Shown one piece after another: positions 22,336 to 30,010 of a stretch of DNA of 64,000 bases. The number at the start of each line of letters is the position of its first letter. Position 1 is the stretch's first letter. The position numbers and the translations under genes are program-made. Where the stretch lies: assembly GCA_032358165.1 (NCBI GenBank), contig JAALGY010000043.1, positions 1 to 64,000 on the forward strand. The letters run 5' to 3'. The stretch comes from Diplosphaera chodatii. Lineage: Eukaryota; Chlorophyta; Trebouxiophyceae; Prasiolales; Stichococcaceae. The notes below the pieces were generated by a model, which worked only from the letters and a program-made list of their open reading frames with translations, was not told where the DNA came from and ran no database searches.

Positions 22336-25300
22336 ATGAGGGTGACCGCACCGCAGGCGCTGCTGCTGCTGGCGGCGGGCCTCACGCTCGCGGCGCTGCC
22401 CGGCTGCCATGGCCACGCCTACCTCATGGTGCGGCGCTGTGCGACGCCGAATCCAGCTGTGGCGCTCGTGCCAGCAGCTGTGCAGAGTCTTTTAGGCCAT
22501 AGTCTCTCAGGGCAGAGTCGTGTAGGGCAGCTGCCGGGCGGCAGTAGCAGCAGTACGCGGTAGCGCTGCAGGCATGGCTCACGCTGGGCTTTTGGCTGCC
22601 AATGGAGCGCTGCGGTCATGCCGCCTGCCCTATCTCCGGTCTGTGCTCACGCCTACCCGCCTGCCGTAGCGGCAGCCGCTGCTGCGCGCCGCTCCAGTGG
22701 CGGTCTGCAACCGCTGTCCGGGTGTCGGGTCTGCAGCGCCAAGATGCGTTTCTGGCTACCAGCGTGGAACTGCAGCAGCAGACTGACGCTTGGCACTCCT
22801 GTGTTTCCGCCCCAGGAGCCCGCGGCGCGCAACTGGCTGTACGCGCACACGCAGAACTTCTACGACGAGATGAGCCTCAACTCCATCGGTGCGCGCGTCT
22901 GACGCAGCCCAGCAGCACGTGTTCAGCGACGCACTGTGGTCGAACCAGCCCCACATCCGATCTGAGAGTGCGCCTGACGAGAGCGCTGGTGTCGCAGTGA
23001 GGCAGCTGGTGATCAGTCCGAACAACTGGCTGATGGCATCTCCGCAGGCACCGGGCTGTGCGGCGGGCAGCAGCCGACGGACGCGCGGTTCCAGGTGGCG
23101 CCGCTGAACCCCACGTCGCCGGACCAGGCAAGCGCGCCCCACCCTGTAGTCAACATGCACAGGCAGCTGCTCCTCACAGCATACAGATGCTGTAGCACAG
23201 AAGCATCATCATCACTGGTTCCCCAAATTCACAGCAGCGTGCTGCCGTCCGCTGCAGGGCATCTTCGCGCGCGGCCAGATCACCGCTACATACAACGAGG
23301 TCAGCCCCTGGCACAGATGTGCATGAAAGCTCCGTGTCCAGGCTGTTGGTCTATGACCTGCAACAGCTCTGCAAGTCGGAAACAGCCAGCCGCCTCTGAC
23401 TGCCCTTGTCACCTCTGCTTTGGGGCCAGACACCACGTCTGACCGCCGTTGCCACCTGTGCTGCAGGGCCAGACCATCCCAATCCGCATCCACATGTCCA
23501 CCGCGCACTGGGGGCGCTTCGAGCTGCGGCTGTGCCCCCTGTCCGACCCCTCCCTGGTGCGCAGTCTTCAAGCTCCGATGAGGACAGCAGCACTCGATCG
23601 CCAGCAGATCTGGCCGCCTGCCCAGCCCAGTCTCAGGCGCCTGGGATGCAGGCCAGCAGCGGCAGCGCTGCGCTGCTGCAATGGGCTGTCAGGGATTGGC
23701 TAGTCAGTTGCACGCCTGTGCTGTTGACCACAGCCCGGGCGGTAGGCAGTGTATGGCGCCTGCTGCACTTGTACCATGCTCCATGCATGTGACTGTGCAG
23801 GTCACAGAGAACGCTGAGCTGACGGACGGCTGCCTGTCGGCGCACCAGCTGTACCTGGCGGCAGAGTCCCTGCAGCCTGGTATGTGCAGAGACAGAAGCT
23901 CAGATGTGATCCGAAGGTGTTTTGAGCCCTGTGCTGCATGGTGCATGGTAGTAGTGAGCATTGTGAGTGGCTCTGAGTGGACAGACACTCATGTTAGACT
24001 GACACATCAGCCGCGTCTGCGTCCCCGCAGGCATCTCCAACCCCATTGACGGCAAGGAAAAGGTGGGCACTCTATCCTGAAGAGTGCCCTACTTCATCGC
24101 TGGGGCTGACCCTCGGTCCCAGACAGCTGCATCAGCGTTGGCGGCCGTACAACTTCGCGCTAGAAAGCAGCATCCTACAGACTGCGCAACCCTTTCCCCT
24201 GCAGTACTACTACTTCACGCGCGCCGACCAAACCGCGCCCGACGTGTACGCCAAGTTCGTGCTGCCGCCGGGCGTGTCCTGCGCGCGCTGCGTGATGCAG
24301 TTCCGCTGGGTCACCGGCAACTCCTGCTGGGGTGCGCACAGCTGTTCGTCCTCTGTGTGAATCAGGTGGACAGCCGCCGTGTTGGTGCCGGCTGCAAACA
24401 GCGGCGGCCAAAGCCTCTGGCACGGCGCACGCCGCTGCAGGCCACGAAGCATCTGCTTCGGTGCCAGATTCTGATTTGCAACAGTAAAGTGCGCCATCAT
24501 CTTGGTCCTGGACACGCTGCCCTCGCCTGACGCTTCTGCTGTGTGCCACCCTGCAGCGCCGGGCACCAACTACACGTGGCAGATGTCCATCACGCCCAAC
24601 CTGCCCGCCTGCGACCCCGCCACGTACCTGGACCCCAACCAGCGGCCGCCCGAGAAATTGTGAGGGCGGCTCAGCGCCTTGTGTACTGTATGAACACTGA
24701 TTGTGAAGGCTTTGATTGCGCCTGCGGACTGGCAACTAAACCTGCAGCTCGTCATGCCTGCGGTCATGACTATGGCTGCACAGCAGCTGCACGCAGCTAG
24801 CAGTCTGGAGCTCCTTTGAGTAGACGGAACTCCAACCAGCACAGCACAGCAACCACTCTTTTAGAGTTCAGTCAGCGCTGAGGTGCTCGAGCTCTGTGCC
24901 GCGCTGCAGCTGGAACTGCGCGGACGTCCGGATCAACAACCTGTCGGGCCCCTCGCCGCCGCCGCCGCCCAGCCCGCCGCCCAGGCCGCCGTCGCCGCCG
25001 CCGCGCGTGTCGCCGCCGCCCGCGCCCCCCGCAGTAGAGGTGAGGCGCTGGCAAGGCCTTGAGCTGCATGCCGTGTCATGTGGGGCGACGGCTTCAGCTG
25101 GTGCCGTGGCCAGCTGCCATGCTATTAGCTGTGCTATCCGCCACCCCTGGTGCTGATGGGCACATTCTTTTGATAAAGATGTATAGCCTGCAGCCTCTGG
25201 ACTCTGCCATTGTCCAAGCCCAGCGAGATCCCAGCTGCTAGACCGCCCAGGTCTCACTCACCCTGAGGGACCCCTCTCATTACTCAGCACAATATTTCGA

Positions 25301-28300
25301 GGCGCCAGTCACCACCAGCCTGTCCTGGGTGCAGCCGCCGAGCCCGCCGGCGCCGCCGCCGCTGCCGCCGCGCGCGCCCCAGACCTTTGCGCCCTTCACC
25401 GAGCCGCTGTTCCTGTCGCCGCCGCCCGGCGCCGTGAAGGTCGTGGGGTCATGGGGCCAGTGCGGTGAGCCCACGATGAAGTATACACCAATTCTGCCGT
25501 TCGCTGTGGGATTGCCAGTGCGAGGCTGTCACTCACTGTGTGCTGCCGAGCTCACAAGCTGCCATCAAGGTGTCGCATGGCATGCTGCAAGGGAAGGCGA
25601 GTCTGTCAGAGCCGCTCATCTGACTGTGCCTGACATTCCGACGGTCGTGACGCTGCAGGGGGGCGCTGGGGAAATCCTGCCTACCAGCTCCAAGACATCG
25701 CGTGGCCCGACACCGCATGCCTGGACGGCAACGGCTGCGTGCGCGGCTCCAGCGACTACTGGTCAGCTTCCTGGCCGCCTGTGTGCCCGTGAATGCAGTC
25801 GGAAAAGCTGTTGTGTGCTGCGGTTGGGCAAAGTGTCGTGTGAAACACACCAGGGCGCAGCTGGCAGCAGGGTTACATCGCACCGTGCAGCCGTGCGCAC
25901 GTGCACGGCGTTTGCACGCGTTTGCGCGGCTGCACGGCAGTTGTTGGACGTGCGCACGGCTGTCGGGCAGCGTCAGACAATCTGATCTGCAGGGATTGCA
26001 AGTGCAAACTTATTTTTGCGGTCTGTTTAAGGGCCTGCAAGCTTGCAGGACGCCTAATAGTGCTTGATGGACATGTTTGTGAGTGTTGCACAGTCCGGAC
26101 GCGGCGAATTCAGCCCGGTTTGATGCATCTAGCTGAGCTGGACTTAGTCATCAGGTCGCTGACGTCAACCAAGATCCTTGCACGCTGCCCGGCAGGCCGT
26201 TTCTCGTGCCGTTTCTCGTAGCCCTGGCTGGCAGCTGTGCATGGTGGTTGGCCAGCTGTCTAGGTCGATGCACCTGGCAGCTGAGACCCCGCTGCTGAGC
26301 CGCGGGCACTGGGCCGCTGAGCTGCCGGCCCTGCTGCCGGCTGCAGCGTGGACCCAACCGCCTGTTTCCCACCGTCTGCACACCCCTCCCTCCTTGAACG
26401 CACGTGTCAGCATCGGTATTGCTGGGCTGCAGGCAGTGCCGCCCTGGAGAGCGCCCCACGCTGCCGGCGACGCCGACGGCGCCGACCGCTGCTCCCACTG
26501 CAGCGCCCGCCGCTGCAGGGCTGCCAACGGCGGGCCCGACCGCTGCAGGGCCGCCGACCGCGGCGCCGGCGGCCGCCAACCTGCGGGTCGTGGGGTCCTG
26601 GGCCCAGTGCGGTGAGCACGTTTTTTGAACCCCCAAGTGGCCCCAGATTGTGTGCAGCAACCGGCGGGTTCAGCGCTGCGGTCGAGTCGAGCAACCCCTG
26701 CCAAGGCTCGAGCGTTCTTGATCGCGTTGGGGCGTGTGCTGTCACAAACTGACAGCGGCCCTGCCGTCTCAGTTCTCACCAGCACAGGGCCCTCTGCCTG
26801 TAGGCAGCTCCTAAGGCAGTCGTGCAATCCTGCTCTTCATAGCTTGCAATATATAATCACACCTGCTGCCGCCGTGCAGGCGGGAAATGGGGGAACGATA
26901 AATATATCCTGCAAGATATTGCGTGGCCCGACACCGTCTGCGCCGCAGGCAACGGCTGCGTGCGAGGAAGCGAAGCTTGGTGGTGAGCCGCCGCCCTTGC
27001 CGTGCCGCGCTTGCTGTGACATTTGACAGTACGTCACATGCGTGTTCCACTTCTGCAACACACATTCTCGCTGCGCCAATTGGTGCAAGCCATTTCATTT
27101 GTCGGCACGTTGGGCCAAACTGCCAGCCTGAAACCTCTCCTGCCAAGCCGTCAAAGCACGTGCAAGGCCATCACCAACAGTGCACTTTTTGAGCAGGGCA
27201 ATGTTCTGCACCCTGCAGGCAGTGCCGCCCGGGGGAGCAGTCCACAGTCCCCGCAGCCCCCACCGCCGCCCCCACCCGGGTTCCAATGGCGGCCCCCACC
27301 GCGGCCCCCTCGGCAGCCCCCACGGCCGCCCCAGCCGGCTCCGACCCCAGGGCGCCGCCGGCCGCCGCCGCCGAAGCGCCGCCGCCGCTGTTCGGCGGGC
27401 AGCCGCCGCCGCGTCCCACCGAGGCCCCCGCCACGGCAGCCCCCACGGCGCAGCCGACCGCCGTCCCGAGCGCCGGGCCCCAAGTCCGGACCGTCGGCGC
27501 CTGGTCCCAGTGCGGTGAGGGCTGGATGCCGTCCAAGTGTCCAAACACATACAGATGAACTAACCATGAAGGGGGGGCGCCAGTGGCAGACCAGCAGGTA
27601 AGCGTCTTGGGCGGAGCTGTGGGGGGCGTCGGTGTTGCTGTGATGGGCCCAGCTGTGATGGGCCGGAGACGATGTCCTTCAGCTGCCCTACTGCCGAATC
27701 ACCGAGAGGACCTTGCATTGCTGATGTCTAGTTGAATCTGTACATACTGTTGCTGTGTAGGAGGGAAATGGGGCAATGATTTATACGCGCTCCAGGACAT
27801 CGCGTGGCCGGACACCGCGTGCGCCGCCGGCAGCGGCTGCGTGAGGGGAAGCTGGTGATTTTTCTGCAAATGTTTTTCATGCCGATGCATTGCCGGGCGG
27901 TCAGTGGTCATGACCTGCTGTGACCTGTGGCTGCTGTTGCAGACATTGCAAAATAGCAGCAGGCAGGACTGCCGCACTGCAGTATGGCAGCATGTCCACG
28001 GCGCCTGTCAAGAACCAGCAGCTTACATCGTGGTGATGCAGATATGCGAGTTCGTCATGTTGCAGGCAGTGCCGCCCTGGAGAGGCCCCCACCACGCCTG
28101 TAGCCACACCCGCACCCTCTGCAGCCCCGACCACGCCCATCCAGGAGGGGACTCCCAGCCGGACGCCGGCGGGACCCGAGCCGACCGCTGCGCCGACCGC
28201 GCCAACCCAGCTCGCAAACATGTGGTCGCAGTGCGGTGAGCCTCTCAAATGCGCCAGCCCACTGGCCTGTGGTGCCGGCAGCGCACTCTGCTGGGTGCTG

Positions 28301-30010
28301 GTGTGGAACGCACAAAGATCAACCTGTGTCATGACGTGCCATGAATGTCTGCAGGGGGGCGGTGGGGCAACGCAAAGTTCCCGCTCCTCGATGCCGCCTG
28401 GCCCGACACCGCCTGCATCGACGGCAGCGCCTGCACCCGGCTGTCAGCCGATTTTTGGTGAGCACAAAAGCACGGACCCTACATCAACAGCTGCAATGAG
28501 CGTGTGCAGGCGCCTGTGCGTACCAGCATACCATACATCAGCGGCAGCCACGTGACATCGTGCCTGCTACCCTAACGCCTGCAGCTGGACATGTGAACAG
28601 ACCGTTGCATGCTGATGTTACTTTGTCACAGGTGTTGTGGTTGTTGCCGCCGCGCCACGGCTGGAAGCCACCTTCACAAGCACAACCCTGCCCCCTGCTG
28701 CCGCCACGAGCTGCTGTGCATGTCACCCCGCAGGCAGTGCCGGCCGCTGCCGCCGACGGCGGCGCCGACGGCGGTGCCCACTCGCGCACCCACGGCCGCC
28801 CCGACGTCCGAGCTGCCGACCCAGGCGCCCACCTCGGCCGCCCCCACCGCAGGTGTGTCGAGCCACCGCCTCCTGCCCGGCCAACCGCACCACACATGCT
28901 TGGAATGGGTGCTCCCACCACCCCCGCTGCCAGCCTCGCAGGGACTGCTGAGCTGCCCAGGTGTTGCGGCCGTCTGCCAGAGTGTCATGCGGCCCCTTTG
29001 CGCACCCTGCCAGCGGATGCTACCTTGAAGCAGCGGCCGCATGCCAGCTCCGGCCTTGATCACGCTCGGCGCTCTGCCCTGCAGTGCCGGCGCCCCCCCC
29101 TGGAGCCGGCGGCCTGCCCACCTACGCCTCGCGGCCGACCGCCCCAGCGGCGCAGCCGTCACCTGCGACCGAGGCCCCCACCGCCGCACCCACAGACGCC
29201 GCCGCGTCCCCGCCGCCGGCGACGGCGGAAGACGCCCCGTCCGACCCGCCGCCGCCGCCGCCGCTGCCGCAGGTCACCCGCATGAAGCTGGCCGGCGCCT
29301 GGGGGCAGTGCGGTGCGCATCTCCCTGTCGGAGTGAAAGTGGTCGGAACATCTGCTGTATCACCACAGCTGCTGTATGATGCAACACCCTGCGCTACCTG
29401 TATACTGTATTCAGTCGCGCAGCTCGCTTGTTCCCAAGTGTCTGCCTGTGGTGCCACGCGGCGGTGCCAGTGTGCGCCGGCCGCCGCGAGCATGTGCGTC
29501 TGACGATCGCGTGATCCTGCCTGACGGCCACCGCTGCGCTGCAGGGGGGCTGTGGGGCAACGCGGCGTACCCCACGGACGCGCAGTGGCGCGACACCGTC
29601 TGCTCCTCCGGCACGACCTGTACTCGCCTCAGCATCGACTACTGGTGCGCGGCAGCCTGTATGCCTGTCTACCCTGAATCCGCTACCCCCTTGAATCCCT
29701 GAAATCAAAATGCGCAAACACCCCGTGCTCAGCCAGCCTACCCTGCATCTCGCTCAGCGCACTCACTGGTGCGCAGCAGCCGCTGATCGGACCGTGATGC
29801 ATGTCTGCCTATGCAAAACCACTGAAGAAAAGGATCCCACAGCTGCTGCGCACTGTGGTGGTCGTATCCGATGGTGCCCTACACCAGGCATCCAGATTCA
29901 ATCAAGATTGCTTCCACAACCCCGCCACTGCCCACAGCACCTGGTGTCCACAAGGTGACAGCACTTTGACGACATGTTTCCTGCTTGTGCGCAGGCAGTG
30001 CCGACCTTGA
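22336..30010 (+). CDS. Secreted AA15/AA10-like lytic polysaccharide monooxygenase with five CBM1-like cellulose-binding modules
   Basis: Twenty-two exons close in phase to 829 residues: 22,336-22,428; 22,816-22,888; 23,048-23,127; 23,258-23,299; 23,467-23,556; 23,801-23,879; 24,031-24,062; 24,205-24,331; 24,557-24,659; 24,910-25,039; 25,335-25,464; 25,659-25,761; 26,433-26,611; 26,880-26,982; 27,219-27,514; 27,761-27,854; 28,066-28,235; 28,355-28,457; 28,734-28,852; 29,085-29,312; 29,545-29,644; 29,995-30,010. A signal peptide would leave His27 (HAYLMEPAARNW) as the N-terminal copper ligand; His110 (STAHWGRFELRLCP) is the second brace histidine. CVMQFRWVTGNSCW and FWNCADVRI complete the chitin-binding type 4/LPMO_10 fold; the HAYLMEP.AR start resembles AA15. 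Residues 250-322 are an SPPP linker. Five modules of the form W.QCGG.WGN...DT.C..G.C.R.S..YWQCRP follow, near 322, 416, 549, 637 and 787. Family members oxidise cellulose or chitin; the substrate here is inferred. The third intron is GC-AG. Confidence 0.93.

Follow-up and report, generated by a model that had tools for sequence, protein, structure and literature searches.

A predicted AA15-type copper monooxygenase with five CBM1-related modules in the green alga Diplosphaera chodatii

Introduction

Does a green alga carry a lytic polysaccharide monooxygenase (LPMO) with five cysteine-rich modules on a single chain, and if so, what would such an enzyme act on? The question is raised by a gene at 22336..30010 on the plus strand of a 64,000-nucleotide stretch of Diplosphaera chodatii DNA (positions 1 to 64,000 of contig JAALGY010000043.1, hereafter the window, on the contig we call C37). 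An initial annotation, made from the letters alone, had described it as an LPMO fused to modules like fungal CBM1 (CBM, carbohydrate-binding module). Our preferred reading, to which we assign a probability of about 0.6, is that the gene encodes a secreted AA15-type copper monooxygenase anchored by five modules, with cellulose as its likeliest target. The architecture alone, an AA15 domain followed by five CBM1-related modules, is close to certain; it is the cellulose part that lowers our confidence in the whole.

Gene structure and catalytic domain

Splicing 22 exons of the window yields an open frame of 829 residues followed by TGA and free of internal stops, the same two numbers that the initial annotation gave. 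All 21 acceptors are AG and 20 of the 21 donors are GT; the remaining donor is the GC of intron 3 (23128..23257), which is kept in a second copy of the gene on contig C2. Translation starts within GCCGCCATGAGG. An earlier acceptor for exon 11, giving 840 residues, was discarded for the one used here because the C2 copy has the identical acceptor. All parts of the gene described below lie on the plus strand.

The putative signal peptide (residues 1-26, 22336..22413) was judged by eye rather than with a predictor, and its cleavage would expose His27 (22414..22416), the first histidine of the copper brace. The catalytic domain follows as residues 27-248, encoded by exons 1-10 (22414..24934), and includes the second brace histidine, His110 (23506..23508), which aligns with a histidine of the Thermobia AA15 structure 5MSZ. 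Both histidines are invariant in all 12 rows of our LPMO alignment (columns H21 and H104), and the CVMQFRWVTGNSCW and FWNCADVRI motifs are present in the spliced protein. Pfam LPMO_10 matches residues 27-246 with 41.2 bits (cut-off 23, E 3.6e-10), and 5MSZ is the sole PDB sequence match of the catalytic region (E 2.1e-13). The modelled fold of a database homologue, P0001, is likewise consistent with AA15. These results bear out the initial annotation on His27, on His110, on both motifs and on the resemblance to LPMO_10 and AA15, and they support the assignment of the predicted product to the AA15-type LPMOs. The NCBIfam match fell far under its cut-off (22.4 against 75), and a PF03067 search of the alga's own genome returned no match, probably owing to the introns that interrupt the domain; the loci were recovered with protein queries.

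At the axial position, where 5MSZ (TdAA15A; PMC5823890) has Tyr184, the algal protein has Phe240, whose codon (24658..24910) is split by intron 9. This pairing comes from a second, very short stretch of the PDB alignment that scores -0.8 bits alone and is anchored by NCAD. An axial Phe is found in all 11 catalytic domains of this genome entered in our tree, which leaves out four loci on C17 and C45 and for which P0006, P0010 and P0013 were cut at an incorrect point on their left side.

Reality of the fusion

The catalytic domain and the modules could in principle belong to neighbouring genes, an AA15 gene and a module-protein gene wrongly joined by our model, which is weakest at the exon 10/11 junction. 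Several copies of the arrangement speak against this. The gene on C2 is a diverged second copy, modelled in 23 pieces, with the same domain order and all five modules, and the flank downstream of the C37 gene is collinear there. P0001, a predicted protein of 446 residues from a 2,070-base contig, consists of an AA15 region 70% identical to that of the algal protein, a proline-rich linker and one module of the same type, where the window gene has five. Four paralogues with one module each, arranged as tandem pairs on C7 and C18, likewise run from AA15 through a proline-rich linker to the module. We consider a gene-model error very improbable, and because P0001 joins the same type of catalytic domain to such a module, we regard the fusion on one chain as real, as judged from these sequences; the initial annotation's preference for one chain over two messenger RNAs is borne out by the same three sets of genes.

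Between the C37 and C2 copies, the ratio of nonsynonymous to synonymous substitution rates (dN/dS) is 0.093 in the AA15 domain (224 aligned codons), 0.134 in the modules (216) and 0.349 in the linkers (365). The catalytic domain and the modules are under purifying selection. The LPMO_10 E-value, the second genomic copy and this selection confirm that the observation stands above chance.

The cysteine-rich modules

A proline-rich linker (PPPPPSPPPRPPSPPP; 24935..25448, including intron 10) leads from the catalytic domain to the array. The modules comprise residues 322-365 (25449..26445), 416-459 (26596..27231), 549-589 (27499..28078), 637-680 (28220..28746) and 787-829 (29297..30007), each with two introns. 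Their cysteine gaps are 20-5-9, 20-5-9, 20-5-6, 20-5-9 and 19-5-9; CBM1 spacing is near 10-5-9; gaps of 5 and 9 recur in four of the five, and the first gap is 19-20 in all. Module 3 lacks three residues relative to the corresponding module on C2. The same pair of introns interrupts every module, one in phase 1 within CG|G and one in phase 2 within W|QCRP, and we therefore think that the array probably expanded through duplication of an exon unit with phase 1 at both ends. By eye, module 5 is closest to the single modules of the paralogues, a placing that the tree does not settle; stars mark 1 of 13 and 10 of 20 inner branches in our trees, which do not fix the order of module duplication.

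How do these modules relate to CBM1? They share with the CBM1 of fungal CBH I four cysteines, 5 and 9 residues in the last two gaps (in four of the five), a [WY]xQCGG start and a QC end, but differ in about ten extra residues between the first two cysteines, including an invariant Trp, and in altered aromatics. They also stay under the Pfam CBM_1 cut-off of 20.6 bits: no family is listed for modules 1 and 2, and modules 3, 4 and 5 score 9.8, 16.1 and 10.4. Two single modules of the paralogues score 17.4 and 17.0, and that of P0001 13.1. The link to the family runs through glycoside hydrolase family 6 (GH6) genes of the same genome, whose three modules all pass CBM_1 with 29.7, 27.3 and 21.7 bits, the latter two having been cut at an intron. 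A profile built from 15 LPMO modules matches these GH6 modules with 40.1, 29.6 and 14.0 bits, scores reached by none of 2000 decoys with fixed cysteines, and a whole-genome search with a module query found the GH6 module on C21 (E 4.7e-4). Against the PDB, the first five rows returned by the profile are CBH I CBM1 (E 0.0068-0.048), and the first unrelated row stands at 0.14. Because the window modules are under the cut-off and the link is made by the GH6 modules that pass it, we call them CBM1-related, a relationship that these profile matches support, with a longer first cysteine gap, and stop short of assigning them to CBM1 itself. The initial annotation's "CBM1-like" thus holds as a statement of kinship and fails as one of Pfam membership.

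Predicted structures of the modules were of low confidence: a GH6 module predicted alone has three strands at a mean pLDDT (predicted local distance difference test) of 56.6, and the module part of P0001 is under 60. Among the 14 database proteins compared, a close module occurs in P0001 alone; P0007 carries a pair of more distant modules, the first unmatched by the profile (its score was reached by 97 of 2000 decoys) and the second weakly matched (14.5 bits, 0 of 2000). A protein search with the module alone gave no match among 100 candidates, an absence that is weak because P0001 was missed too.

Comparison with known enzymes

The occurrence of AA15 enzymes in Chlorophyta was published in 2018, together with fusions of AA15 to CBM1, CBM14, GH18 and GH19 (PMC5823890), and 18% of AA15s with disordered tails are multimodular (PMC8615602). 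TdAA15A (5MSZ) and TdAA15B of Thermobia domestica share with the algal protein the AA15 sequence, the two brace histidines, NCAD and an aromatic axial residue, which is Tyr in TdAA15A and Phe in TdAA15B and the algal protein; the Thermobia enzymes are without C-terminal modules (PMC5823890), whereas the algal protein has five. In Saprolegniales an AA15 domain is likewise followed by CBM1 (PMC8393829), but, as described there, by a single one, where the algal protein has five modules with a longer first cysteine gap. The Cys-rich CBMs of volvocine GH9 cellulases are also found in modular algal proteins with proline/serine-rich linkers (PMC6032398), a likeness of description rather than of compared sequence, and they sit on GH9 rather than on an LPMO.

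The initial annotation held that LPMOs usually carry none or one binding module; this agrees with a review, which also gives exceptions such as AA10-CBM5-CBM73 (PMC10154629). P0009 (952 residues, jgi) combines LPMO_10, GH18 and two CBM1-type modules in a single chain, so that the algal protein is not the sole enzyme of this kind with several modules. The accessible parts of the open-licence literature yielded no AA15 with several CBM1 modules. The AA15 enzyme type and its fusion to CBM1 are known, and it is the five-module array that is unusual.

Substrate and function

If the reading that we prefer is right, removal of the signal peptide would enable His27 and His110 to coordinate copper; once reduced, this copper would use O2 or H2O2 to oxidise glycosidic bonds at a fibre surface. 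The N-terminal AA15 domain would be held on an insoluble polysaccharide by the five modules on their proline/threonine-rich linkers, and several modules acting together could lengthen its residence time and keep its cuts local. An attached CBM promotes binding of an LPMO and makes its oxidation local and repeated (PMC10154629), effects that five modules would be expected to reinforce. We infer that cellulose is a likelier substrate than chitin because related modules sit on GH6 genes. The enzyme might then act alongside GH6 and GH9 enzymes of the alga in turnover of the wall or in the use of cellulose from outside.

Several observations weigh against this reading. None of the five window modules reaches the CBM_1 cut-off, the PDB match to CBM1 covers 19 residues in the second half of the module, and the QCGG half contributes 2.6 bits to it. 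P0009 has a database-assigned Pfam CBM_1, yet the profile failed to match either of its two CBM1 modules (1131 and 22 of 2000 decoys reached their scores). The aromatics of the binding face also differ, with Asp or Ala in several copies at the position of a CBH I Tyr. The genome has nine GH18 matches, on C36 and C8, and the search for chitin synthases covered one family, Chitin_synth_2, exon by exon. Finally, an axial Phe accompanies chitin activity in the AA15s studied (PMC5823890, PMC8393829).

It is also possible, though we think it considerably less probable, that a protein of the same architecture targets chitin or a glucosamine polymer, in fungi, animals or a wall layer, and that the modules bind this instead. 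Chitin is favoured by the axial Phe240, as in the chitin-specific TdAA15B and AaAA15A (PMC5823890, PMC8393829), by the GH18 matches, and by LPMO_10 relatives that carry PF01607 (P0006, P0012), PF01476 (P0002) or PF00704 (P0009). But the axial Phe is a correlation and no rule, the related modules sit on GH6 genes, and the exon-by-exon search for Chitin_synth_2, which gave no match, counts against chitin as well. One might also imagine a mainly structural wall glycoprotein, whose proline-rich linkers and modules knit the wall while the AA15 domain binds and oxidises little. Of the aligned codons, 365 fall in the linkers, against 224 in the catalytic domain and 216 in the modules, and the protein has PPSPPP stretches like those of wall proteins. 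Yet neither brace histidine is lost, and of the three parts the catalytic domain is conserved best (dN/dS 0.093 against 0.349 in the linkers); we consider a structural role improbable.

Returning to the cellulose-directed, module-anchored monooxygenase, the loss of a CBM can destabilise an LPMO, and how binding modules change these enzymes is an open question (PMC10154629). A single genome with the same catalytic type bearing one and five modules makes the effect of module number directly testable. The reading would likewise extend oxidative remodelling of walls, or the use of cellulose, to the green algae; no green-algal AA15 with tested activity turned up in the accessible portions of the open-licence literature. 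We speculate, tentatively and with less confidence than in the reading itself, that the alga has a nearly full, fungus-like set for cellulose degradation (GH6 with CBM1, many GH9 and some 15 AA15 loci), topped by an LPMO nearly fixed to the fibre, and that the modules are an algal subtype of CBM1 common to hydrolases and LPMOs.

Genomic setting

The initial annotation took this to be an algal genome, and other evidence agrees. A nuclear RbcS is present, and the PDB entries that match it best are small subunits of chloroplast Rubisco, the top ones from Chlamydomonas; TTTAGGG telomere repeats occur at 3 of 15 sampled contig ends; and the only named homologues are from Micractinium and Chlamydomonas.

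Exon-level AA15 matches number 63 and group into about 15 loci, on C37, C2, C7 (three), C18 (three), C17 (two), C45 (two), C50, C33 and C25. A six-cysteine tail closes two of the AA15 genes, at C7:709k and C18:766k (loci C7:708000-713500 and C18:765000-770500); it matches no Pfam family in the C7 gene and looks ShK-like. Just downstream of each, on the same strand, lies a Cys-rich QCGG module, which on C7 matches the LPMO-module profile with 29.6 bits (0 of 2000 decoys). Further loci, at C45:1822500-1829000 and C10:1345000-1351500, have several QCGG-type modules each, with a GH5-like piece under the cut-off (13.7 against 23.5) beside those on C10.

GH9 has 41 exon-level matches and GH6 has 17, the latter on C21, C35, C15 and C6. 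C6 (32.5 kb) repeats at 600-2300 the C15 stretch 3112000-3113800, and a 100-base piece of C6 also occurs in C15; C6 may well be, and probably is, an assembly duplicate of this stretch. The GH6 catalytic domain at C21:104000-110000 is one intronless open frame, 91% identical (404/444) to a C35 gene (3398800-3404600) that our script split into ten exons, and is perhaps a retrocopy. The genome looks doubled, in C37/C2 and C7/C18 and perhaps in C17/C45, C33/C50 and C32/C21, the last three pairs being suggested by matching search hits. Synonymous divergence (dS) of the catalytic domains is about 0.2-0.53 for C37/C2 and three C7/C18 gene pairs, and the doubling looks like a hybrid or an old duplication.

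Within the window, an Rfam search found nothing, and the 20 frames searched, from 329 window frames of at least 100 residues, gave no Pfam match with E of 0.01 or less. Positions 114-1495 are occupied by a tandem array whose repeat unit measures about 173 bases.
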